From Cellulosilyticum lentocellum DSM 5427 (GTDB lineage: Bacteria > Bacillota > Clostridia > Lachnospirales > Cellulosilyticaceae), in NCBI RefSeq assembly GCF_000178835.2, contig NC_015275.1, positions 2,811,001 through 2,875,000 on the forward strand: DNA of 64,000 bases. Direction: 5' to 3'. Below are positions 45,001-64,000 of the stretch, one piece after another. The notes beneath the pieces are model-generated. The model made no database searches, had not been told where the DNA came from, and was given only the letters and a program-made list of their open reading frames with translations. The translations under genes and the position numbers were made by a program. Numbering within the stretch: position 1 is the stretch's first letter; each line of letters begins with the position of its first letter.

Positions 45001-45115
45001 CATATACTAAGCAAAATTCACCTTTATAATTATTACTTTTATATTACGTATTATTTCTATTTATTTACCCTTTGTAACATTTATGATATAGTAGACCATG
45101 GAAAGGTGGTATGTT

Positions 45116-46186
45116 ATGAAAAACAAACTCATTAGTTTTCTATTACTTCTTATGATGCTTGTTATACCTCTTCAAGCGAATACCTCTTGTAAGCTTATAC
45201 TTAATGGTATCACTTATAAACCTACTTATACACCGATCATCTCTCAAAAAAATCTTTTTTTATCGCTAGATGATTTAGTTAATATGACCTATTCTACATA
45301 CAGCAAAAGTAGCAATAATACTTACCTTTGGTCACTCCCAAAAACAACTTTAGAACTTACGACCAAAAGTAAAATTGTAAAGGTTAATCAAAAACAACAA
45401 ACTCTTAATACTGCACCTTTTACAGTTAATGATGTACTTTATGTTCCCATTAGCTTTTTAAAATTAGCCGATTATCCTTACACTTTGTCTTCTGATTTAA
45501 CCCAATTTGAATTAACTTCACTCTTACCTTATTCAACATCAACAGATACCTATACCTCTCATACAACTTTATCTACCGACTATACAAAATTAGAGGATAT
45601 TTTTACACCACTTCTAAAGGAGGATAGCCAGCCACTTATTAAAACAGCCATTAAATATAATCAATATTTAAGTTTCGCAAGCAGTTCCTATAAAAAGGAT
45701 ATCCTTGCAGGATTAAATAAGGTGATTGGTTCTTTACCTGAATTAGAGGTAACTTTTAGAAATCTCGACCTGCTAAATGACACACCAACTTGCAATAATT
45801 TAACAACCTATCCTCTAAAAGTAATATCAGATAATAATGGTATTAGAGTAAAATTTAATCATACAGATATGGTATATGAATGTTTATGGCCTACCTATAA
45901 TCCAAATAGCCATACTACCGCTATTGATATTAACAAATCCTTGGATGTCATGATTATGAGGGCACTTTATGAAAATTACAGAGATACCTATGATTTAAAA
46001 GATGATATTCACTTTTCTCCCATTACAACAGTTCAAATGGGACGTTCAGATTCTATTACTTATACAGTGTACTCAGATCACCTTTTAGATCAAACACATA
46101 CTTATACGGTCACTATCTATAAACATATTACTCCAGGAAAAATTAATTATATTGTAGATTTAGGTGCACATACTATCACTTCTTAA
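45116..46186 (+). CDS. Secreted protein with copper amine oxidase N-domain-like fold
   Basis: 356 residues from the ATG at 45116 (AAAGGTGG upstream; an earlier in-frame ATG lacks one). Signal peptide ~1-22 (LISFLLLLMMLVIPLQANTS). Residues ~25-140 resemble the N-terminal stalk domain of copper amine oxidases widely found in clostridial secreted proteins (NGITYKPTYTPIISQKNLFL, NDVLYVPISFLKLAD). The rest, very rich in Thr, Ser and Tyr, is not recognised. No wall anchor is seen. Function unknown. Confidence 0.65.
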   Translation: MKNKLISFLLLLMMLVIPLQANTSCKLILNGITYKPTYTPIISQKNLFLSLDDLVNMTYSTYSKSSNNTYLWSLPKTTLELTTKSKIVKVNQKQQTLNTAPFTVNDVLYVPISFLKLADYPYTLSSDLTQFELTSLLPYSTSTDTYTSHTTLSTDYTKLEDIFTPLLKEDSQPLIKTAIKYNQYLSFASSSYKKDILAGLNKVIGSLPELEVTFRNLDLLNDTPTCNNLTTYPLKVISDNNGIRVKFNHTDMVYECLWPTYNPNSHTTAIDINKSLDVMIMRALYENYRDTYDLKDDIHFSPITTVQMGRSDSITYTVYSDHLLDQTHTYTVTIYKHITPGKINYIVDLGAHTITS

Positions 46187-46199
46187 AAATTTAGCTTTT

Positions 46200-46254
46200 A
46201 AAACCGAGTAAAAACTAAAACAATATTTTTCGTTTTAAGTTTACTCGGTTTTTT
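46200..46254 (+). terminator. Terminator of the secreted protein gene
   Basis: Arms AAAACCGAGTAAA and TTTACTCGGTTTT with a T6 tail, 13 bp after the stop. Confidence 0.85.
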
Positions 46255-46287
46255 AGTGCCCAAAACATTTCCACCATAATATTATAG

Positions 46288-46307
46288 TAATGTAAAATAT
46301 TACATTA
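46288..46307. promoter_or_regulatory. 20-bp palindrome upstream of the superoxide dismutase gene
   Basis: TAATGTAA-AATA-TTACATTA is a perfect inverted repeat ending 15 bp before the start codon and overlapping the ribosome site region. Its AT-rich form recalls Fur/PerR-type operators, and repression in response to metal or peroxide would suit this gene. The regulator is not in the window. Confidence 0.5.
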
Positions 46308-46322
46308 AAAGGATGTCTTATT

Positions 46323-47228
46323 ATGAATAATCTTATGAGTTTATTTTTACTTTCTACAGCAACCACTGCTCATCAGAAAAAAGTAGCCGCTTCGTATAAA
46401 TATGCTTGCCAGCAAAAGCAGTTGCTTCGTACACCTACATGTGCACAGCCTAATCGTGAAACAGCAACAACTCCACCTCAGGCTCCTATAACCAAAGTAC
46501 CTATGGTTAGCTCAAGTGAATTAGCTATGCTTAATACGCTTTATCAAGCAGATGAAGCTACTGATATACCTGCTTCCACTGGTCCTTTTGAACTACCTCC
46601 CTTGGAATATAACTATAATGCTTTAGAACCATATATTGACGAAGCAACCATGCGTGTCCATCATGACGGACATCATCGTACCTATGTTAATAACTTAAAT
46701 GCGGCTTTGTCACGTTACCCGGAGTTTTATGCTTATACCCTAGAAGAGCTTTTACTTTTTTCTGACCGCTTACCTAGTGATATTCAAACACAAGTTATTA
46801 ATAACGCTGGTGGCCATTATAATCACTCTCTTACTTGGAAGCTCATAGGTCCACCTACAAATTCCGAACCAACAGGACAACTAAAAACAGCTATTGAAAC
46901 CCAATTTGGTACTTTTGATAACTTTAAAGCAGCGCTTACTTTAGCTGCCTTAAGTGTATTTGGTTCTGGTTATGCATGGCTTATATTAAATCCTTACGGT
47001 AGATTACAAATTGTAACCACCGGCAATCAAACGACCCCTATTCCGCTTCGTGGTATTCCTCTATTACCTATTGACGTTTGGGAACATGCTTATTATCTCA
47101 AACATCAAAACAAACGTGGCAATTATATTAGTGACTTCTTTAATGTTATTAATTGGGATCGTCTAGGTGAACGTTATGATGCTGCTCTAGCTAGCTTAAA
47201 TCTCCCCACTAGTACCACCTCACAATAA
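46323..47228 (+). CDS. sod: Iron/manganese superoxide dismutase with long N-terminal extension
   Basis: 301 residues, about 90 longer than usual. Residues ~88-297 are a complete Fe/Mn SOD: FELPPLEYNYNALEPYID, ligand His113 in MRVHHDGHHRTYVNN, ligand His in NAGGHYNHSLTW, and Asp and His in DVWEHAYYLKHQNKRGNYI. The first ~85 residues are low in order and rich in Thr, Pro, Gln and Ala with two Cys and no clear signal peptide. Dismutates superoxide. The extension may target it to the spore or cell surface; that is speculation. Confidence 0.92.
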   Translation: MNNLMSLFLLSTATTAHQKKVAASYKYACQQKQLLRTPTCAQPNRETATTPPQAPITKVPMVSSSELAMLNTLYQADEATDIPASTGPFELPPLEYNYNALEPYIDEATMRVHHDGHHRTYVNNLNAALSRYPEFYAYTLEELLLFSDRLPSDIQTQVINNAGGHYNHSLTWKLIGPPTNSEPTGQLKTAIETQFGTFDNFKAALTLAALSVFGSGYAWLILNPYGRLQIVTTGNQTTPIPLRGIPLLPIDVWEHAYYLKHQNKRGNYISDFFNVINWDRLGERYDAALASLNLPTSTTSQ

Positions 47229-47243
47229 TCTGATACTTTATTT

Positions 47244-47286
47244 CTGCTAGAAATAAGAGGGTAATCATCCTTCTTATATCTAGCAG
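47244..47286 (+). terminator. Terminator of the superoxide dismutase gene
   Basis: Arms CTGCTAGAAATAAGAGGG and CCTTCTTATATCTAGCAG pair over about 17 bp, 15 bp after the stop. Confidence 0.75.
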
Positions 47287-47398
47287 TCTCTCTCATATCA
47301 TTCTTTTTTCAACACAATTTTCTTTAGCGCCTTGTCCCTATCTATCAAAACATGATATGATGTTACATAGTATAAAGATGAGATGAAAGGTCATAACT

Positions 47399-48514
47399 AT
47401 GAATTTTAAAACACTAGGGATTTCCCCTGAAATGATAAATCACTTAAAAAAATCAGGTATCACAATACCAACACCCATTCAAGATCAAACAATCCCCCTT
47501 ATATTATCAGGAAAGGATGTCATTGGTGAGGCACAAACAGGTACAGGTAAAACATTAGCTTTTTTACTTCCTCTTTTTGAAAAGCTTTCTTCTAAAAGCC
47601 CTAACATCCAAGCCCTTGTTTTATCTCCTACAAGAGAGCTTGCTATTCAGATCACCCAAGAAGCAAAAAAGTTAGCTGAAGCTAAGGCTATCGGCATTCT
47701 ACCTATTTATGGTGGACAAGATACAGCCATGCAGCTAAAGAAATTAGGAAAACCTGTTCATTTAGTTATTGCTACGCCAGGACGTTTACTAGACCACATT
47801 GGCAGAAAAAGTATTGATTTAAGCAAAACCACTACCTTCGTTTTAGATGAAGCCGACCAGATGCTTTTAATGGGCTTTAAAAATGACGTAGAAAGTATCA
47901 CTAAGCAGCTTCCTAAAAAGCGTCAAACCTTATGTTTTTCAGCTACCATGGATGCACCAGTTAAAAAACTTGCTTACCGCTATACTTCTTCTCCTACAAC
48001 TGTAACGATTGCTAAAAAGAAAATAACTATTGAAGCCATCCATCAAGAAATTGTAGAGACCACTGATCGTCATAAACAAGCTGCTCTTCTTCAGGTATTA
48101 AGCGAAGATAATCCTTATATGGCTATTATCTTCTGCCGCACCAAACGCCGTGTTGAAGTGCTTTATGAAGCTATGAAAGATAAAGACTATAACTGCGTAA
48201 GGCTTCATAGCGATATTTTACAATCCAAAAGAGAGCGCATCATGAAAAGCTTTAAAAAAGGTGATATTCAATACCTTATAGCTACGGATGTTGCTGCTCG
48301 TGGTCTTGACATCTCGGGTGTCACCCATATTTATAACTATGATGTACCTGAAACACCCGAAGCCTATATTCATCGTATTGGACGTACAGGACGTGCCGGA
48401 AATGATGGCTACACTTGCATGTTTATGTCTCCAAAAAACGAAAAAGAAGTATCTGAAATCGAAGCACATATCCGCTTTAAAATCCCACGTCGTATACTTC
48501 AAGATATACTTTAA
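47399..48514 (+). CDS. DEAD-box RNA helicase, core only
   Basis: 371 residues with all helicase motifs: Q motif GITIPTPIQDQTIPLI, motif I AQTGTGKT, Ia PTRELAIQ, II LDEAD, III SAT, V ATDVAARGLDIS and VI HRIGRTGRAG. It ends about 20 residues after motif VI, so it lacks the basic or RRM C-terminal tail of CshA or DbpA. It unwinds RNA duplexes, probably in cold adaptation or ribosome assembly. Alone between two terminators. Confidence 0.94.
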   Translation: MNFKTLGISPEMINHLKKSGITIPTPIQDQTIPLILSGKDVIGEAQTGTGKTLAFLLPLFEKLSSKSPNIQALVLSPTRELAIQITQEAKKLAEAKAIGILPIYGGQDTAMQLKKLGKPVHLVIATPGRLLDHIGRKSIDLSKTTTFVLDEADQMLLMGFKNDVESITKQLPKKRQTLCFSATMDAPVKKLAYRYTSSPTTVTIAKKKITIEAIHQEIVETTDRHKQAALLQVLSEDNPYMAIIFCRTKRRVEVLYEAMKDKDYNCVRLHSDILQSKRERIMKSFKKGDIQYLIATDVAARGLDISGVTHIYNYDVPETPEAYIHRIGRTGRAGNDGYTCMFMSPKNEKEVSEIEAHIRFKIPRRILQDIL

Positions 48515-55162: not shown

Positions 55163-56029
55163 ATGGAGCGATCAGATATTGCTTTTTACAAACAAATTGA
55201 ACAAAACTTTATTGAGTTTGCAGAAAGCCGTCATGATATACGAGCTGCTTTTGTTATTGGTTCACGCGCTCGTTCAGATCATCCTGCCGATGAGTGGTCT
55301 GATATGGACATTGTGTTCTATACAACAAACCCAAATTTTTATCTTCAGCAGCAAGATTGGCTGGACAAAATCGGTGATATTCTATGCTCTTTTGTTTTTC
55401 AAACTGCAGGTGGTGATCCAGAGCGGCTTAATTTATTTAAAGATGGTCATCAGGTTGATTTTGTAATTCATTCTGTCGACACCTTGCGTGATATTGTGTC
55501 CGCAAAGGTAGTTCCCAGTAATTTTTATCGAGGAGTCCGCGTCATTGTTGATAAAGATCATCTTAGCAATGCCATTATGCCAGCCCATTTTCAGCCGCCG
55601 GAAGTTTTATCCATCTCAGAGGCAGCCTACTTACAAGTTGTGAATATGTTTTGGTTCATATCACTATATATTGCAAAGCAGTTGCTCCGTGGAGAATTGT
55701 GGGTGGCTAAAATGCGTGACTATGATGCCAAAGGACTTCTTCTACAAATGATAGAGTGGCACGAAAAAGTAGTGTTTGGTAGCGAGTATGACACATGGCA
55801 TGCAGGACGCTTTATGAATGAATGGGTTGATGAAGATACTCAGGCAGCACTTTCTAAATCCTTTGGCAGATTTAATCAGGTTGACAGTTGGAATGCGTTA
55901 CTATCAACCATAAATCTTTTTCAGAAACTGTCAGCAGAAGTTGCCCTAAAAATGCAGTATTCTCGTCCCGAAGCACTTGAAACCTATATATCTGACTGGA
56001 TAAAAGCGAAATCAGAGATAGTCAATTAA
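55163..56029 (+). CDS. Aminoglycoside 6-adenylyltransferase-like protein
   Basis: 288 residues, the usual length of ANT(6)/AadK/AadE proteins. The nucleotidyltransferase motif is FVIGSRARSDHPADEWSDMD, with GS and DMDIVF supplying the metal-binding carboxylates, and VDFVIHSVDTL follows. The C-terminal helical domain (WHAGRFMNEWVDEDTQAALS) matches the family. True enzymes adenylylate streptomycin; activity here is not proven. Codon use appears somewhat richer in GC than the neighbours, which suggests transfer. AGGAGG lies 8 bp upstream. Confidence 0.88.
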   Translation: MERSDIAFYKQIEQNFIEFAESRHDIRAAFVIGSRARSDHPADEWSDMDIVFYTTNPNFYLQQQDWLDKIGDILCSFVFQTAGGDPERLNLFKDGHQVDFVIHSVDTLRDIVSAKVVPSNFYRGVRVIVDKDHLSNAIMPAHFQPPEVLSISEAAYLQVVNMFWFISLYIAKQLLRGELWVAKMRDYDAKGLLLQMIEWHEKVVFGSEYDTWHAGRFMNEWVDEDTQAALSKSFGRFNQVDSWNALLSTINLFQKLSAEVALKMQYSRPEALETYISDWIKAKSEIVN

Positions 56030-56257: not shown

Positions 56258-56468
56258 TCAATCATTGTAATTAGTCTTGTTGTCCTCTTCTTCGGCTTTA
56301 ATATTGGCTTCTACAGTCTTTTTAACAGCTTCTTGCTGTTTTTTTTAATTCTTTTTCCACTCTGTAGATTTCTTTAGCCATTTCTTTCTTATATCCAACA
56401 GATTGCTTAGAATGCTCCGCAATACCTAAGCCTTTAGTAAAGAGGCTTAAAGCATAGTGACTTTTATT
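56258..56468 (-). pseudogene. Unidentified gene fragment with A8-run frameshift
   Basis: On the minus strand a frame reads SHYALSLFTKGLGIAEHSKQ and GYKKEMAKEIYRVEKELKK, then breaks at an A8 run (T at 56339-56346). After a one-base shift it goes on KKQQEAVKKTVEANIKAEEE to DNKTNYND and a stop. The amphipathic Lys/Glu-rich sequence is clearly protein-like, but I do not recognise the family. No start is seen, so the 5' part is also lost. Confidence 0.5.
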
Positions 56469-56528
56469 CTAACTATGGTTTAGTATTCTATACAGAAATA
56501 GACAATTCCTTTGATACTCACAATTTAA

Positions 56529-56720
56529 CCCGATTATCTACAATATAACAAAAAAATAGGTGTACCTTATAGGAATTTTCATTTCCTAATGCACACCTAT
56601 GCAACTAGACTATTTGAAAATAATGTCCCAATTAAAACTGTACAAGCATTGCTAGGACATAAAGATATAGCTACAACTATGAAGATATTCACTTATGTAA
56701 TGCGAAAAACTGACAAATGA
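56529..56720 (+). pseudogene. Tyrosine recombinase C-terminal remnant
   Basis: About 63 codons matching the end of a phage-type integrase: KKIGVPYRNFHFLMHTYATR, LFENNVPIKTVQALLGHKDI and ATTMKIFTYVMRKTDK. The usual HxLRH box reads HFLMH, so the catalytic Arg is lost, while the Tyr in IFTYV remains. Everything upstream is missing. It ends 175 bp from the tRNA-Glu fragment, the normal place for an integrase next to its att site, so it is probably the relic of an older element. Confidence 0.85.
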
Positions 56721-56894
56721 AGTTCAGTGCTAAAATAATACTTGGTTAGGTCCTGCATCTTTTAGGGCCCATTTTTTATATCATTTAAAATAACGTTGCA
56801 AATTATTTACAAGTTTTTGAATTATTGCAACCCAAAAACAAAAATAGCTAAAGCCTGTATCTATTGATATCCTAAGCTTTAGCTATATACTTTA

Positions 56895-56940
56895 TGACCC
56901 ATACGGGAATCGAACCCATGATTTCACCGTGAGAGGGTGA
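56895..56940 (-). other. tRNA-Glu(CTC) 3' half, probable attachment site
   Basis: On the minus strand an anticodon arm TCACC-CTCTCAC-GGTGA (anticodon CTC), a T arm ATGGG-TTCGATT-CCCGT and the 3' acceptor strand ATGGGTCA are present. The acceptor 5' strand and D arm are absent; upstream is plain AT-rich sequence. This is the classic duplicated att left by integration into a tRNA 3' end. By orientation the element should lie to the right and the intact tRNA beyond the window. Not a functional tRNA. Confidence 0.88.
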
Positions 56941-57090
56941 AAAAGGTATTTTTAATGAAATACTTGATACTCAATGCACAGCTAGTATTTTCAAGTATTT
57001 AAGAGCCTTTTATTTATTTTCTTGTTTTTCATTTTTTGCTTTGAATCATAGGTGTTTATTTAAATTTATTTGCAGTAAAATTTGCAGTTA

Positions 57091-58935
57091 TTAATTTTCG
57101 CCCTCGCTTACACTCCATAATGCTTCTAAGTTAATCGTATGACTTTGTGGCTGATATTTTTCCTCCAATTTATCTACCTTTATAAGTACTGGGAAATTGC
57201 ATGCAGTTCCCGTCATAATACACCCACCTTGCGGAAGAATAGGTATCATCTCAAATGATGCTCCATCTAAAAATGAAACGCTCCTTCCAATTGCTTTAAT
57301 GTCTTCATTATTTACTAAACGATGTAAAAAATAATTATGCAATTGTGAAATAATAGTTTCGGAAATATCAGATGGTCTCTGACTTGATATAGTTAAGAAT
57401 ACCCCAAATTTTCTTCCCTCTTTGATTATTTCTTCAAACAATTCAAGCCTATAATCTTTCCACATGCTACTCTCACGATCCGATTGCTTAGATAAAATAT
57501 TATGTGCTTCATCAACTATTATAAATAATGAACTACTCTGATTTTCTTGTAACTTATGAAAATCATATGCCCTCTTACACACTATCATAGGAATAATTTT
57601 TCTCATCTCAATATTAACTTCGACCAATGATATTATCTGTAAATTTTCATCTATAACATCAGCATTATCAAGTTTAAAAATCTTTCTTATCTCTAATAAA
57701 CGATTGTCTAATCGTCTAAGTAATGGGGCAATATGCTCTTCATTTATATACCCCCTTGCTACATCATTTGCATATTGTAATTTTACTATAAACTCAAATC
57801 TATCCCATTCATCTATGTTCTCTTCTTCATCTTTGTATTTTAGATTATCTTGAGTAATAACTTGCAGTAAATTTATCACATACTGATTATGCTTAAAATC
57901 ATCTTCACTATTAAAATAAATATTGGCTTGATCGATTATGTATAACTTTCTACTAGTACTATGATATGCTAGCTTTCCAAATAAATTATCCACTTCCGCA
58001 GAACAATTATCAAATCCCAAACTCAATATTTCTTTATAATACTTTTTTAGCGTACTAAATTTATCAGCATAGTCATAAATACTATTTATCATTTCTCTTA
58101 TTTCATTAAGTATACTATTATTTTGTACTGATGCACTAAATTTTTGAATACACTTCTTTAAGAAAGGCTGTTGTGTTTTTTCAGTTGCTTCTAGAATAAT
58201 TGACCAAAATTCTAAGTCTTCAATGGCTTTTTTATCAATTGGGAATAACTCTTCTCCTCTTCTTGTCGATAGATGATATACTTTTTTATTTACATTTGAT
58301 ATTGTATTTTCATATTCACCGTTAAAGTCAATAATAAGAAACTTACTACTATTTTTAAATACTTCACTTTCTTTATATATATCAAATAGTTCCTTATATA
58401 TCTTTGCCAACGTATTCGATTTACCACTTCCAGTATTTCCAAATATGCCTATATGGCTTGCAAACAAACTCTGAACTCCGATTTTTAATTTATACTTATT
58501 GTACCCTATAATTTCTCCAATAGTTATCGTAGAAGCATTATTAGCTGAAAATGCGAATACACTTTGTATTTCTTCTTCAGAAAGTATATATACGTAATTT
58601 GATATTAATGGTAACTCAGATAGCCCTCTATGAAATCTATCTTGTCTATCCATATATCCTATTAAACTAATTTCAATTACTCTATGAATTTGCTCCTCTT
58701 TATCATAGTAAATAACCTGCTTATTAGGATTTAGTAACGTAAATTCTCCTTCTATTTTTCCAATTATATCTTGAAATCCCTTCCTTATTTTTACAAAGCC
58801 GCCCACTGATACATTCTTAATTACTTCCCCACAATAATTTAAATTTGATTCATTTTTATCTTTATAGACTTTGGCTCTTACCTTTTGCCCTCTAACTTCA
58901 ATAACTTCCCCTATTTTAAGTATTTCGATATCCAT
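57091..58935 (-). CDS. HerA-like ATPase of a SIR2-HerA defence pair
   Basis: 614 residues from the ATG at 58935; a TTG 24 bp earlier is less likely. A HAS-barrel-like N-terminal domain (~1-150) precedes the FtsK/HerA ATPase with Walker A IGIFGNTGSGKSNT (166-173) and Walker B LFIIVDEAHNILS; GRKFGVFLTISSQRPSDI carries the sensor and arginine region. HerA rings assemble with SIR2 into large complexes. The start overlaps the SIR2 stop by 20 bp, showing coupling. It is the first gene inside the island after the tRNA fragment. Confidence 0.92.
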   Translation of the reverse strand: MDIEILKIGEVIEVRGQKVRAKVYKDKNESNLNYCGEVIKNVSVGGFVKIRKGFQDIIGKIEGEFTLLNPNKQVIYYDKEEQIHRVIEISLIGYMDRQDRFHRGLSELPLISNYVYILSEEEIQSVFAFSANNASTITIGEIIGYNKYKLKIGVQSLFASHIGIFGNTGSGKSNTLAKIYKELFDIYKESEVFKNSSKFLIIDFNGEYENTISNVNKKVYHLSTRRGEELFPIDKKAIEDLEFWSIILEATEKTQQPFLKKCIQKFSASVQNNSILNEIREMINSIYDYADKFSTLKKYYKEILSLGFDNCSAEVDNLFGKLAYHSTSRKLYIIDQANIYFNSEDDFKHNQYVINLLQVITQDNLKYKDEEENIDEWDRFEFIVKLQYANDVARGYINEEHIAPLLRRLDNRLLEIRKIFKLDNADVIDENLQIISLVEVNIEMRKIIPMIVCKRAYDFHKLQENQSSSLFIIVDEAHNILSKQSDRESSMWKDYRLELFEEIIKEGRKFGVFLTISSQRPSDISETIISQLHNYFLHRLVNNEDIKAIGRSVSFLDGASFEMIPILPQGGCIMTGTACNFPVLIKVDKLEEKYQPQSHTINLEALWSVSEGEN

Positions 58936-60223
58936 ACCTAGTTTCCCTCTCTTTGCCAAATTTTTTACTTAATATAGAAGAACTTAAGAACTTATTCAAC
59001 TGCATTAAATCTAGCTTTGTCTCTTGTACTGCACACGCAACTTCTTCCTCATTTTTCCCTCCTTCTATTTCTTCTGTTTCTTCTGTTTCTGCCTCTTCAC
59101 ATAAAGTTTCATCTCCTTCAATAACACTTCCATTTTTTTCTTTATCTAAAGTTACAATCCAAACATTATTTAACAACTCAAATTTATCCATAAATGAATT
59201 AATATCTTTTACTTGATATGCAAAAATAATCATGATTAAAGATGGATTATTCAATGCTCTTAATGTAATTTCATGAATATGTTCATCAGCAAATGAAAAA
59301 CCAAATACCATTAAAATAACATTATTCTTTTCTAATTCATTAGAATAAATTCTTAATAACTCATAATAGTTCTTATCCAATAATGTATCACTAAATTTTT
59401 CTTTGGTAGGATTTACTATCTTAAATGATTCCTGATACATTTTAGTTAATGGTTTCCATATATTGTTTAAATCAGCATCTTCAACATTAAAATTTTCAAG
59501 TAACTCATCAATAAACAATTTATTCACTTCATTCCAGTTTGCACCTTTTACCTTCTCCCATATTTCTCTTATTTCATCTTTCTTAGTATCAATTAATTCA
59601 TGTACATGAGTATTAAATTCATTTAAAGATTGTTTATAATCTCCATAACAAAATCTGCTATCACTGTATTTTTTCCATGTAATAGAACCATGTATTTTAA
59701 ACAAATTAACAATTGGTATCTCAGTCACTCTATCAGAAAATAATACTTGCTTCTCAAAAATCATATTGTAATGTGCTGTTGAAAAATATGGTATTATTCG
59801 CCCAACAAATCCATCATTATATACAATATTCGCTTCCTCAAATGATAGTTCTAAAAAAACGTCATAATTAGTTGTAAAAATATTTACTTGCTTATGTAAT
59901 GTTGCACTTTCTCGCTTATTTAAAATATGTTTTATCATACTAATAAACTCTATTTGAGCCTTTAAATCTGTTTTATTGGCATGTTGATCAATAGGGTAAA
60001 TACACTCCTCAAAGAATTTTAAGTATAATATGCTTTCCAATGCCACATATTTATTATTTTTATCCTTCTTGATTATCTCCATAACCTTTTCTATATTTCC
60101 TAGAGTCCCTAGTAATGGTGCAGAGAATCCTGCTCCTAGCAAGAAATTTATACTATTTGACTCTATAAGTTCAACCATATCACTAATAAATTGTTCATCG
60201 TATAAGTATTTTATTTGTGCCAT
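58916..60223 (-). CDS. SIR2-like NAD-consuming effector of a SIR2-HerA pair
   Basis: 435 residues. The SIR2-like fold shows FLLGAGFSAP (NAD loop, 27-36), IFTTNYD with the catalytic Asn (119) and LFKIHGSITW with the catalytic His (178). The C-terminal half ends in an acidic low-complexity stretch (ETEETEEIEGGKNEEEVA). In SIR2-HerA anti-phage systems this protein hydrolyses NAD+ or acts as a nuclease after infection and stops phage growth. Gene order, sizes and overlap fit that system. No DUF4297 is present. Confidence 0.9.
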   Translation of the reverse strand: MAQIKYLYDEQFISDMVELIESNSINFLLGAGFSAPLLGTLGNIEKVMEIIKKDKNNKYVALESILYLKFFEECIYPIDQHANKTDLKAQIEFISMIKHILNKRESATLHKQVNIFTTNYDVFLELSFEEANIVYNDGFVGRIIPYFSTAHYNMIFEKQVLFSDRVTEIPIVNLFKIHGSITWKKYSDSRFCYGDYKQSLNEFNTHVHELIDTKKDEIREIWEKVKGANWNEVNKLFIDELLENFNVEDADLNNIWKPLTKMYQESFKIVNPTKEKFSDTLLDKNYYELLRIYSNELEKNNVILMVFGFSFADEHIHEITLRALNNPSLIMIIFAYQVKDINSFMDKFELLNNVWIVTLDKEKNGSVIEGDETLCEEAETEETEEIEGGKNEEEVACAVQETKLDLMQLNKFLSSSILSKKFGKERETRYGYRNT

Positions 60224-60284
60224 ATTTCATTCACCCCATAACAAATTTTTCACTAGTTGTATAAGACATATTAAAATATGTTAG

Positions 60285-60893
60285 TTACTTTTCCTCTGCA
60301 GATTCATATACTTTTACATATTTATGTACCGTTTGCCTAGATATACTGCATATTCTTGCTAATTCTGATTTATTTATTTCTTTACTTCTATATTTAGGAT
60401 AATGCTTAATAAAACTACTAGGTAAATTCTCAATTGTTGTAATAGGCCTTCCTATAACTTTACCTTTAGCTACTGCATTTGCCATGCCACTCTTTACACG
60501 TTCACTAATCATATTGCGTTCCATCTCAGCGAATACACCCATCATCTTAAGCATTCCATCAGTCATAGCATCAAGTTCACCCTTGCTACAATCTACTACA
60601 AAACCACCAATTACTAACTTGAGTTGCTTTTCTTTTACCTTTTCAATAATCTCACATAACTGCTTAGTACTTCTCGTAATACGTGATACTTCTGTAGTAA
60701 CTATTGTGTCTCCTGCTTTTACCTTATCTAATAACTTATTTAGTTCAACTCGATCTACCTTAGTACCACTTTCATATTCCCAATATATATTTTTCTCATC
60801 CACACAACCTAAAGCTTTAAGTTCTCTCTTCTGTCTATTAATATCCTGCTTATTTTCATTAGTTGAACATCTTGCATATCCATATGTAGTCAT
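60285..60893 (-). CDS. Serine recombinase (resolvase/invertase family)
   Basis: 202 residues from the ATG at 60893 (AAGGTGG upstream; a GTG 12 bp earlier overlaps it). The catalytic domain has the nucleophile Ser10 in YGYARCSTNENKQDINRQ and conserved Arg residues in TEVSRITRSTKQL and FAEMERNMISERVKSGM. A C-terminal helix-turn-helix (KSELARICSISRQTVHKYVK) binds the res site. It may resolve or invert DNA of the element, or help with its upkeep. It lies directly upstream of SIR2-HerA. Confidence 0.93.
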   Translation of the reverse strand: MTTYGYARCSTNENKQDINRQKRELKALGCVDEKNIYWEYESGTKVDRVELNKLLDKVKAGDTIVTTEVSRITRSTKQLCEIIEKVKEKQLKLVIGGFVVDCSKGELDAMTDGMLKMMGVFAEMERNMISERVKSGMANAVAKGKVIGRPITTIENLPSSFIKHYPKYRSKEINKSELARICSISRQTVHKYVKVYESAEEK

Positions 60894-61086
60894 TCTAATT
60901 TCCACCTTTTGTCATTTATTGACTTAATCATAACTTGTCTATCTATATTCGTCAACAAAAAGGTGGTTTAATTTTCTTTTACACTTTTCCACTATTTTTA
61001 TGCGCTTTTATAGGGTTTGATATATACTTAAAATTGTCAATGAAATCATTTGTTTTCTTTTACACATTCCTTCGAATCATTTACTA

Positions 61087-62193
61087 CTATTCTTCATAAT
61101 ACATTATTCTGTTTTCATTAATATACTCAAAACCATTATCTAATTTATCTTGCTTAATATTCTTCTTCACTATTCGCTTAACACTATTCAGCGAACTAAT
61201 TTCTTCTTCTACAAATAACTTTATAAGATTATAAACTAAATGACTTATGAATGATATTGTATGCTCAAAAATAACTCCATATTCAATTCTTAGCTCAACA
61301 TGACTTACTCCATCATGAACTATCTTATTTCTTAATTCATAAAAGTAGTATACCCAATTAGCAATATATCTCTTCTTTTCTATATTAGCTGAATCTGCAA
61401 TTAAACATGCAGATCTAATTGCAACTTTTTTTCTCTGATTACTTTCATTCTTTCCTAATAGTAAGGTTTCTAATATTGTAGCATATGTTGGTATTACCGT
61501 ATCCAGATTAGTATAAGTAAGATTAGAATAAAGTAAATTTAATGCTGACCTAATACTATTAGCTACCTTATCATGTAGTATTATCCTTAAGAATAATTTT
61601 TCTACCGTATCACTAATATTCTCATTAATACTCATATCCTCTAAATAACTAAGGGGTGATACTATGCTATTATAGTTATCTTCTATAGATGTATAATATT
61701 TAGGAATTGTAAGCTCAAAATCATTTTCATCAAAAGCTCTATCCCCTATTTTTATTGCACATTCTGTTCGCCTACACCCACCATTAGTATGATATGCATC
61801 TATAAGCATAACTTGTTTAAAAAATGATTTAGTATTCTCTTCTGTCCATCTATTCGCTATATACAATATACTAATTGCAACCTTTAAATCAAAAATATCC
61901 ACATATCGATTAGTATGAACATCTAATAATGCAAATGTATTACAGTCTCTATACTTTGTGATTACCCTATCCGCTTCCTTATTATCTTCACCTCTTAAAT
62001 CAATAGCTAATTTCAACTTGCTTTTATCTGCAAAGTCTATTTTCTCTAGATACATTTCTTTATCATTACCATTAGTAGTATTTATATCTATTCCAAGTAT
62101 TGTTGCCATTTGTTTAGCTGTGTAGGCTCTAACAATAATTCTAATGATACCTTTATATCTTATTCTTATTCCTTGAATTGGTATTATTAACAT
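61087..62193 (-). CDS. Apea-like HEPN domain protein
   Basis: 368 residues. The C-terminal third carries the HEPN RNase-type motif R288-x4-H293 (YELRNKIVHDG) preceded by ATILETLLLGKNESNQRKKV, which fits Apea-like HEPN domains. The first ~200 residues, with IRIIVRAYTAKQMATILGID and a Cys pair in NGGCRRTECAIK, are not recognised. HEPN proteins in such islands often cut RNA during phage infection. It has its own GAGGTG site and no toxin-antitoxin partner is obvious. Domain call by motif only. Confidence 0.65.
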   Translation of the reverse strand: MLIIPIQGIRIRYKGIIRIIVRAYTAKQMATILGIDINTTNGNDKEMYLEKIDFADKSKLKLAIDLRGEDNKEADRVITKYRDCNTFALLDVHTNRYVDIFDLKVAISILYIANRWTEENTKSFFKQVMLIDAYHTNGGCRRTECAIKIGDRAFDENDFELTIPKYYTSIEDNYNSIVSPLSYLEDMSINENISDTVEKLFLRIILHDKVANSIRSALNLLYSNLTYTNLDTVIPTYATILETLLLGKNESNQRKKVAIRSACLIADSANIEKKRYIANWVYYFYELRNKIVHDGVSHVELRIEYGVIFEHTISFISHLVYNLIKLFVEEEISSLNSVKRIVKKNIKQDKLDNGFEYINENRIMYYEE

Positions 62194-62484
62194 TACTCAC
62201 CTCATGAAATAACCAGAATTTTAGTGTTCCTATACTATTAATTTTCCTAAAATAAAATACTTTCATTTTTCTTCTTGCCTAAATGAATCAATATTCTTTA
62301 TGCCCCAATCTATCGTCTAGTTAGAAGTAATATCTGTTAAAATTATATCTATATTTCTTCTGATAATTTATGTTATTCATCATAAATATAGCATATGTGA
62401 CTTTAATCATCTGTCACATTTTGTCATACAAATAACATATTTTCTTACTGATAAAGCAACCAACGTTCTATTTCCGACACAAAA
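62194..62484. other. Non-coding stretch
   Basis: I see no gene here. AT-rich, with no clear promoter pair; the HEPN gene promoter should lie within 62195-62300. Confidence 0.6.
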
Positions 62485-62504
62485 GGCACCTATTACTAGG
62501 TGCC
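62485..62504 (-). terminator. Terminator of the 163-residue protein gene
   Basis: GGCACCTA and TAGGTGCC arms with a 4-base loop followed on the minus strand by TTTTGTG, 15 bp after the stop. Confidence 0.85.
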
Positions 62505-62518
62505 CTATACTTCATTAC

Positions 62519-63010
62519 TTATGCAATTTCTACATACCTATATACTGACATACACTCTACATCCGTTCGCATTATATATTCATCTTCCCCTATATATTGC
62601 ACCATAAATCCTTTATTAAAGAGTGAGTCTTCTATTTCCAACTCATTTCTCAGCAACTGAGTTAATGGATAAAATCTCACGCCATAATAATTCTCTGTAT
62701 CACAAATAAGAATCTTTCCTTCCTCTCCACAGCTCTTTAAAAATCGCTCTGCTGCATACATTCTGCCTGTATAACTTTCTATTTTTCCATCATTAATATA
62801 ATCGGTTGCTCTAAACAGTATAGGTGTCTCTTCTGGTGTATATCGCTCTAAAACCATTTCCCACACTTCTAGCCATTCTTCTTGCCTTTCATCTTCTCCA
62901 CTATAAATCCAGTTTGCTAAAAAGCTATACGTTTCTTTATTAACTGCTTTTTTCGTTTTAATCGCCCTAACAAGGCAGTTTGCAATCTTTGTTTTCTCTC
63001 TTTTAGTCAT
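62519..63010 (-). CDS. Unknown protein, weakly ADP-ribosyltransferase-like
   Basis: 163 residues. N-terminal helices (KIANCLVRAIKTKKAVNKET) are followed by PILFRATDYINDGKIESYTG and RMYAAERFLKSCGEEGKILI. A LFRA arginine strand, an S/T-containing strand and a helix with AERF recall phage mono-ADP-ribosyltransferases, but the final ExE motif is not clear. Function should be taken as unknown. Its ribosome site is GAGGAC 11 bp upstream. Confidence 0.5.
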   Translation of the reverse strand: MTKREKTKIANCLVRAIKTKKAVNKETYSFLANWIYSGEDERQEEWLEVWEMVLERYTPEETPILFRATDYINDGKIESYTGRMYAAERFLKSCGEEGKILICDTENYYGVRFYPLTQLLRNELEIEDSLFNKGFMVQYIGEDEYIMRTDVECMSVYRYVEIA

Positions 63011-63042
63011 CTTCTTTTATGTCCTCGCTTATGTTTTCATTT

Positions 63043-63157
63043 TTAAAAATTATCCCCCTCAAAAAATTTCATTTCAGGAATTTTGTGTGAGCGTATCGCC
63101 TCTCGTGGTCGACCTCTATATTCACCTTTTTCCCTTGAAACTAGGGGGGATAGGCAT
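63043..63157 (-). pseudogene. Possible small gene broken by a single-base shift
   Basis: A short frame from the ATG at 63157 reads MPIPPSFKGKR and stops; one base later the other frame continues EYRGRPREAIRSHKIPEMKF followed by FEGDNF and a stop. Joined, they make a basic 37-residue protein with AGAGG upstream. Chance is not excluded. Confidence 0.3.
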
Positions 63158-63191
63158 TTTATTATTAACCTCTGTTCCTAATAAAGTCTCT

Positions 63192-63533
63192 TTATGGTGC
63201 TAATACAAAATATAAAACCTCTCTTATTTGCCTTATTTCTTTATATAAATGCTCTGTATTTTCACTCATATGATCAGACATATTTTCAATTTGATATGCT
63301 ATTTCAGCTAAAAGATTTGTCTTTCTGCAAAACTCTTCTTCACAATAGGCTTCTGCCTGCTCTACTGTATTAAATGACTTAATTCCTAATATCTTGTTAT
63401 GTTTATCCCTAAAATAAACATCCGAACCCTCTCTTTCCATTGTTTTTACATAATAGCTATTAATATATTTCTTTTGATTTAAATCGATATACATTTTTGT
63501 TTTCCTTTTCAATTTCTTCTTTTTCGTTATCAT
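63192..63533 (-). CDS. Small unknown protein of the mobile element
   Basis: Up to 113 residues; the ATG at 63494 (AAGG 9 bp upstream) gives 100 residues and may be the true start. The N-terminal half is a basic beta-type domain (YINSYYVKTMEREGSDVYFR, KILGIKSFNTVEQAEAYCEE) and the C-terminal half is a helix likely to coil (EIAYQIENMSDHMSENTEHL). No family recognised. Confidence 0.55.
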   Translation of the reverse strand: MITKKKKLKRKTKMYIDLNQKKYINSYYVKTMEREGSDVYFRDKHNKILGIKSFNTVEQAEAYCEEEFCRKTNLLAEIAYQIENMSDHMSENTEHLYKEIRQIREVLYFVLAP

Positions 63534-63548
63534 TTTCCTGGGTTCTTG

Positions 63549-63791
63549 CGGTAGTCCAATCGGTAGCTGTCACATTCAAATCCTTTGATTATCATACGCT
63601 TCGCTAGTTTCGGTAGTACACACCCAAACCTAGCTTTACTAATAAACTATTTTATCCTTTTAAAGTCTTCTTATTAATTAGATCTATACACAAACTACTT
63701 ATCCTTTTAACTATCTCTACTACCGATAGCCCTTGATATCTCTAACTTCTTCTACCTACTAAACTACCGAAAAACTATCTACAAACTACTG
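63549..63791. repeat. Short-repeat region beside the primase gene, possible replication origin
   Basis: CGGTAG occurs at 63549, 63561 and 63611 and its complement CTACCG at 63720 and 63764. AAACTAC recurs at 63692, 63761 and 63783. The 258 bp between two genes have no open frame. Clustered short repeats next to a P4-type primase are typical of an element's origin. The copy spacing is irregular, so this is a candidate only. Confidence 0.4.
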
Positions 63792-64000
63792 CTAATTTAC
63801 ATTAACAAATTGGCTAACTGTTAATACCAATGCTATGTCTCTATAATAAACATTCCTTCCATCGCTTTCTTTAGGAATGCGCTTCTTCATATCTAAGCCA
63901 AATCTTGTTTTGTTATCTGGTACTTCATTATTAGCTCTACACCATTCTACATATTTGGTATACAAATCCTTTGCTTGTACCTTTGATCCTTCCTTATGAA
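63792..64000 (-). CDS. Phage/plasmid-type primase, C-terminal end (partial)
   Basis: A frame entering from the right edge ends at the TAG at 63792. The 69 residues read KEGSKVQAKDLYTKYVEWCR, ANNEVPDNKTRFGLDMKKRI and DGRNVYYRDIALVL. This pattern, a helical domain with LYxxYxxWC and F-x-L-KKR, is the C-terminal DNA-binding domain of D5/P4-type primase-helicases from phages and integrative elements. Only the end is seen, so the helicase core must lie beyond the window. Confidence 0.75.
   Translation of the reverse strand, partial: HKEGSKVQAKDLYTKYVEWCRANNEVPDNKTRFGLDMKKRIPKESDGRNVYYRDIALVLTVSQFVNVN

Follow-up and report, generated by a model that had tools for sequence, protein, structure and literature searches.

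Gram-positive phage-inducible chromosomal islands (PICIs) are described, in the excerpted text of PMC6092414, as having divergent regulators, an integrase gene (int) beside the repressor, and an excisionase gene (xis) followed by a primase/replication gene (primase/rep) on the opposite strand; the same text states that PICI origins, located just 3′ of the replication initiator, always have two sets of iterons around an AT-rich region. The Streptococcus thermophilus satellites (StCIs) set out in part of PMC13376191 are elements of 7–20 kb with an integrase, regulation and replication genes and attachment (att) repeats; they have no structural genes, and some carry defence genes. Our literature search, judged by title and the start of the abstract, found no dedicated satellite report for the Lachnospirales. 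Here we analyze a 64,000-bp stretch of Cellulosilyticum lentocellum DSM 5427 (the window; C1:2811001-2875000), whose genome is a single contig, C1, of 4,714,237 bases. At its right-hand end the window enters a mobile island, E1, located at a tRNA-Glu(CTC) gene. We put the probability at roughly 75% that E1 is an intact 13.7-kb PICI-type phage satellite integrated in the 3′ half of this gene.

E1 spans 13,676 bp between two att copies; the window contains its left 52%, and the remainder lies to the right of the window edge. Features are given below in window coordinates or, where marked L009, in those of the locus covering E1 (window coordinate = L009 coordinate + 56000).

56894-56940, minus strand: attL, the 47-bp 3′ half of tRNA-Glu(CTC), a perfect direct repeat
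56941-57090, unstranded: left end of E1 with two direct TTTGCAGT repeats (57069 and 57081), likely integrase arm-type sites
57091-58959, minus strand: HerA ATPase, 622 amino acids
58916-60223, minus strand: SIR2-like protein, 435 amino acids
60285-60905, minus strand: small serine recombinase, 206 amino acids, backbone; common to E2 and, broken, to E3 (see below)
61087-62193, minus strand: putative HEPN protein, 368 amino acids, with an RNKIVH motif; extra relative to E2
62519-63010, minus strand: backbone protein of unknown function, 163 amino acids, 91% identical in E2
63192-63533, minus strand: backbone protein of unknown function, 113 amino acids, inside an 80% DNA match to E2
63534-63791, minus strand: candidate replication origin, 258 bp with CGGTAG repeats, directly 3′ of the primase-helicase gene
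63792-64000, minus strand: 3′ end of a D5/P4-type primase-helicase gene, 762 amino acids; the whole gene reaches window coordinate 66080 (L009:7792-10080)
L009:10028-10204, minus strand: Xis-like protein
L009:10210-10410, minus strand: Cro-like regulator
L009:10556-11086, plus strand: Xre-type regulator (repressor)
L009:11087-12241, plus strand: tyrosine integrase
L009:12295-13788, minus strand: GapS1-like protein, 497 amino acids
L009:13836-14429, minus strand: cargo protein, 197 amino acids
L009:14571-14642, minus strand: intact tRNA-Glu(CTC), holding the right att copy
70570-70616 (C1:2881570-2881616, outside the window): right att copy, 47/47 identical to attL, found by genome search

An earlier note on this stretch had placed a 46-bp 3′ half of tRNA-Glu(CTC), without its 5′ half, at the left junction; the half gene is there, its length being 47 rather than 46 bp. 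The note had also predicted that a complete tRNA-Glu(CTC) sharing this 3′ end would lie on the minus strand beyond the right edge, where we found it, and that an integrase would stand beside that tRNA. A tyrosine integrase is indeed situated between the two att copies, but it lies 2.3 kb from the tRNA, with two cargo genes intervening. Run on the window, ARAGORN reported zero complete tRNAs. The attL region has further matches in the genome: three 82% copies of the repeat, probably parts of other tRNA-Glu genes, a pair of element-end matches (E2 and E3) and one left-flank match. The G+C content of E1 is 31%, against 34–35% in the flanks. The TTTGCAGT pair of the left end has a matching pair at the right end (L009:14499 and 14510) and is absent elsewhere inside the element.

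All 13 reading frames of E1 are open, and their products were scanned with Pfam (13/13 proteins), PADLOC (10), PHROGs (10) and NCBIfam (7). Family searches confirmed two genes named in the earlier note, the serine recombinase and the P4-type primase end, which is a D5/P4-type primase-helicase cut by the window edge; in place of the three unknown small genes that it had counted, two convincing ones were found (163 and 113 amino acids). The gene order and strands equal the PICI description, int lying on the repressor's side and in its direction, and xis and primase/rep on the opposite strand. The role of Xis is probably filled by a 58-residue HTH_17 protein with weak AlpA and excisionase matches. 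Compared with Gram-positive PICIs of the Staphylococcus aureus pathogenicity island type, as far as the excerpt of PMC6092414 describes them, E1 has the same size (about 15 kb), regulators, int/xis/fused primase-rep order, iterons 3′ of rep, accessory genes at the end and no virion genes; it differs in lacking terS and in having a backbone serine recombinase. With the StCIs it shares all the traits given above; it differs in its integration site, and neither 'serine recombinase' nor 'resolvase' appears in the main text of PMC13376191. In its layout E1 is a Gram-positive PICI, of a known satellite class. It is unusual in having a serine recombinase that belongs to the backbone and adjoins the cargo slot, and the sign of an integrase/att exchange in E2 (see below) is a second unusual point.

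The candidate origin contains five CGGTAG words, two in one direction and three opposed, flanking an AT-rich core; the entire element has seven. It is the highest-scoring 258-bp window of E1 for repeated 6-mers (windows stepped by 20), and none of its dinucleotide shuffles reached its repeat score (0/1000).

The label of the earlier note, 'satellite or ICE-like', fits in its first half. Elements mobilized by conjugation through a helper's relaxase, of the kind known as integrative and mobilizable or integrative and conjugative elements, commonly integrate at tRNA genes and carry cargo, and E1 could belong among them. Pfam, however, matched no relaxase, conjugation, coupling-protein or secretion family in 13/13 proteins (oriT was not searched for), and a primase-helicase of the D5 type together with an iteron-like origin is in keeping with a satellite; we consider mobilization of this kind very unlikely.

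A sister element (E2) and a relic (E3) occur elsewhere in the genome.

L020:280-15050 (C1:1597280-1612050): E2, at tRNA-Thr(CGT), with the same backbone (L020 is C1:1597001-1616000)
L021:2810-8205 (C1:3282810-3288205): E3, a relic with an E1-type left end at 87% DNA identity and a serine recombinase in pieces

E2 is bounded by 56-bp repeats, 54/56 identical and 14,678 bp apart, and has the backbone order and divergent-regulator/integrase layout of E1 with other cargo. The block of primase, 113- and 163-residue genes is 80% identical in DNA between the two elements, and about 160 bp of the left end is 75% identical; the left-end sequence of E1 is also conserved in E3 and in a relic in genome G002 (see below). 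The E2 primase open reading frame (ORF) is open over 729 amino acids; the primase match starts upstream of it, with three stops counted. On the integrase side, the E2 cargo is a 911-residue protein whose DUF4062 match stays below threshold; on the other side it comprises a 673-residue protein with a P-loop-like stretch (by eye) and a 326-residue DUF4062 protein, and this slot also holds an IS3-like insertion with two transposase-like ORFs (by eye). E3 carries, between its left end and the broken recombinase, a uracil-DNA glycosylase (UDG), a B12-type radical SAM protein, a thymidylate kinase and a DUF6119/TIGR04141 protein; these genes might together form a defence module, related to nucleotides, that has yet to be characterised. 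The block between the serine recombinase and the shared element end thus differs in 3/3 copies (E1, E2 and E3); the sister elements keep the backbone and differ in cargo.

The ends and regulators of the two elements differ as well. Their integrases are 38% identical. In E2 each end bears two copies of TTTACAGT, and a further copy lies inside in reverse orientation; the end repeats of E1 and E2 resemble integrase arm-type sites whose sequence changes along with the integrase. An E1-like left end (L020:14686-14991), still with one TTTGCAGT, is situated about 145 bp inward of the repeat that bounds E2, a sign that the integrase and att module of E2 may have been exchanged. The region separating the divergent regulators holds three palindromic repeats, (G/T)ATACnTTTTGTATC, in E1, and other palindromes, similar to ACACATTATAGTGT, in E2; these may be operators of differing repressor specificity. 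Two sister elements in one genome, with a shared backbone and different cargo, and relics with defined ends make the exchange of cargo and integrase directly comparable.

The sister element also bears on whether E1 is what a decayed prophage has left of its early region, with the integrase still in place. The primase-helicase is phage-type, its best phage matches being 40–42% identical over the helicase part and including Listeria phages such as PSA. Among 295 genomes of the order, 22, including its own, have primase matches at E 1e-40 or better; outside its own genome identity is at most 42%, over parts, and the best relative (41%, in G006) sits on a contig amid phage-type genes (by eye). Phage and plasmid records gave solely partial primase matches, below 60% identity. 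The primase, searched alone and as a two-row alignment, had nothing close in viral_contigs and genome_contigs (one 25% relative, L126), and the 163-residue protein had nothing close in viral_contigs. Against descent from a prophage stand the 13/13 open ORFs and the two intact ends of E1, for which Pfam found no virion, structural or lytic family among the 13 proteins. E2, with another tRNA and another integrase, has the same compact order and, in its scanned proteins, no virion gene by Pfam. Decay would hardly yield the same compact layout twice, and we regard a prophage remnant as quite unlikely.

We compared the tRNA-Glu site in five genomes of the genus (G001, G002, G003, G005 and G006). 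The intact tRNA-Glu(CTC) and the same right-hand genes are found in G001, G002, G003 and G006; G005 shows left-hand synteny with window 45098-48514, and the site is uninformative in G003, whose contig stops at the tRNA. In G005 and G006 the 47-bp repeat occurs once, and the 15.5 and 2.5 kb, respectively, to the left of the tRNA contain nothing that matches an E1 protein. The earlier note's view of the island as something other than a fixed core region of its relatives held: no E1 protein was found at the site in G002, G005 or G006 (at least 2.5 kb left of the tRNA), and the 163-residue protein occurs in 1 of 24 family genomes, its own, twice. The database for the E1 proteins at the site was built without the primase, which the separate search of the order genomes covered. 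Two remnants mark the site.

L077:3777-4283 (contig C9 of G002): relic with a second 43/47 copy of the repeat, 434 bp away, at the same tRNA-Glu
56448-56893, unstranded: remnant of an older element just outside E1, with the broken C-terminal end of another integrase and an end region, its frames containing stops

The G002 stretch matches the left end of E1 at 82% over 197 bp and the right end at 87% over 136 bp, att copies included, which accounts for most of it; it is a gutted relic of an E1-type element. At 77.6% identity over 500 bp, a length that takes in the att copy, the remnant left of attL matches the junction of integrase and tRNA-Glu in G001. Because this G001-type integrase remnant lies directly left of attL, E1 would most simply have inserted with the tRNA on one side and the leftovers of an earlier element on the other.

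Such remnants invite the view that E1 is itself stranded, an island no longer mobile and retained solely for its defence genes, as the gutted relic in G002, the broken E3 and the remnants accreted at the tRNA-Glu site would suggest. Yet the E1 repeats are 47/47 identical, and the genes for Int, the Xis-like protein, the regulators and the primase have open reading frames; we think a stranded island unlikely.

Under the phage-satellite reading, a helper phage would relieve the E1 repressor; Xis and Int would then excise E1 as a circle, which the primase-helicase would replicate from the iteron origin, the small serine recombinase would resolve multimers, and the helper phage would package E1, whose cargo would protect the host. 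What the sequence itself shows is integration in a tRNA 3′ half with an intact tRNA left, a backbone kept with cargo change, and the origin-like repeats in E1. The terminase large-subunit family PF03354, the only terminase family searched, matches the genome at C1:929732 and C1:2068266, two loci that mark likely prophages and hence possible helpers.

Several findings weigh against this reading. There is no terS in E1 (Pfam, 13/13 proteins; PHROGs, 10/13), and the only packaging-type match by PHROGs in those 10 proteins is a 25-residue helix-turn-helix within the serine recombinase (phrog_57, a family of terminase small subunits, E 0.0034). A comparison of E1 and E2 with six 20-kb segments around both PF03354 loci revealed no shared pac/cos-like stretch: the best E values were 0.035 (E2, 24 bp) and 0.11 (E1), as against 0.053 (E1) with a control, window 1-56000, less than half as long. 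The AT excess of the origin core is modest (74%, compared with 69% for the whole element). The region 3′ of the E2 primase has no enriched 6-mer, 484/500 shuffles reaching its score, so the origin-like repeats apply to E1 only. Finally, an integrase of another type uses the same tRNA-Glu in G001, on a contig that ends before the kind of element shows, and the remnant left of attL is its counterpart; the PICI trait of an attachment site never used by prophages may therefore or may not apply to this tRNA.

SIR2-HerA systems act by NAD depletion and nuclease activity. The earlier note had seen such a pair to the right of the junction, and both proteins match their families: HerA matches DUF87 (Pfam, E 1.1e-19) and HerA (PADLOC, E 1e-175), and the SIR2-like protein matches SIR2_2 (Pfam, E 6.1e-12) and SIR2 (PADLOC, E 1.2e-61). 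The SIR2 gene overlaps the start of HerA, and the two genes are adjacent, with families as in the SIR2-HerA system. The SIR2-like protein contains TTNYD and KIHGS stretches, which we take to be catalytic. Both proteins match partners solved together (8yhx, 8j4u and 8wof), with best E values of 4.9e-33 for HerA chains and 1.9e-15 for SIR2, whose solved counterparts are in 8yhx and 8j4u. The pair resembles the known system in having adjacent genes that both match partners of solved complexes; it differs in being carried by a satellite-like element and in the remote to moderate level of its similarity to those proteins. E1 is an open, fully bounded satellite-type element with a defence pair of known structure. 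PMC10952713 counts Sir2-HerA among defence systems.

The cargo is located towards both ends of E1, and the remaining genes are less readily named. The HEPN gene, which E2 does not have, fills a gap between the E1 blocks that match E2. The HEPN label of the earlier note has as its sole basis an R-N-x-I-V-H motif that recurs in one 33% homologue (in G019, RNQIVH); the protein has no Pfam match at E 1. Relatives number none in plasmids and one, besides its own, among the 295 order genomes. Single-sequence folds were too poor for use, both for this protein (mean predicted local distance difference test score, pLDDT, 31.9) and for the 163-residue backbone protein (42.1).

At the other end, the 497-residue protein matches the NCBIfam model GapS1 (NF047931) at E 4.4e-17 over 277 residues; its 62.1 bits lie below the curated subfamily cut-off of 320, and it is therefore not placed in the GapS1 subfamily. 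The model matches three of the four aligned relatives, and the alignment of four keeps D308, V309, S322 and K323, while position 321 is D or E. We read this pattern as a PD-(D/E)xK nuclease motif; the likeness to GapS1 lies in the 277-residue match and these conserved residues, and the difference in the score. At E 0.01 neither Pfam nor PADLOC matches the E1 copy, and the family has no match to solved structures at E 1. Relatives occur on three plasmid records, one of them split into two ORFs, and two of the three adjoin DUF4062 and AAA ATPase genes. Among the 295 order genomes there is one besides its own, in G210, surrounded by SIR2-like and other defence-type genes (by eye). A single weak hit among 391 class genomes (E 5.8e-4) was dropped because of five stops. 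This family, found in E1, one related genome and three plasmid records, is a candidate defence gene. Taken together, SIR2-HerA and two nuclease candidates, one a HEPN-like RNase and the other remotely GapS1-like, would make up a cargo that protects the host.

The serine recombinases of E1 and E2 are 76% identical in DNA and 80% in protein, and 14 of the 295 order genomes, its own included, have matches at E 1e-60 or better. We inspected the neighbourhoods in 9 of the 13 other genomes. By reading, without family search, phage packaging-type genes surround the recombinase at L104, an AbiH-like gene lies one ORF away at L105, and methylase-type genes are nearby at L108; at L103 it is preceded by weak integrase and primase matches, and the other five showed no clear pattern. 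The region upstream of the gene aligns partly among E1, E2, E3 and G005, with no sub-site structure shown, which would fit a resolution site. An invertible segment was considered and rejected: no strong inverted repeats flank the cargo, and the listed repeats look like chance. The recombinase might have a larger part if E1, E2 and E3 formed a new satellite lineage, in which it would open a fixed end slot and exchange whole defence modules, the integrase/att ends being swapped separately and changing the tRNA targets; this we regard as quite doubtful. The modules so exchanged, an equally doubtful assignment, would be SIR2-HerA, the DUF4062/P-loop pair and the UDG/radical-SAM/thymidylate kinase/DUF6119 set.

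Left of E1 and of the older remnant, an ORF at window 55163-56029 reads, by eye, like an aminoglycoside adenylyltransferase-type nucleotidyltransferase.

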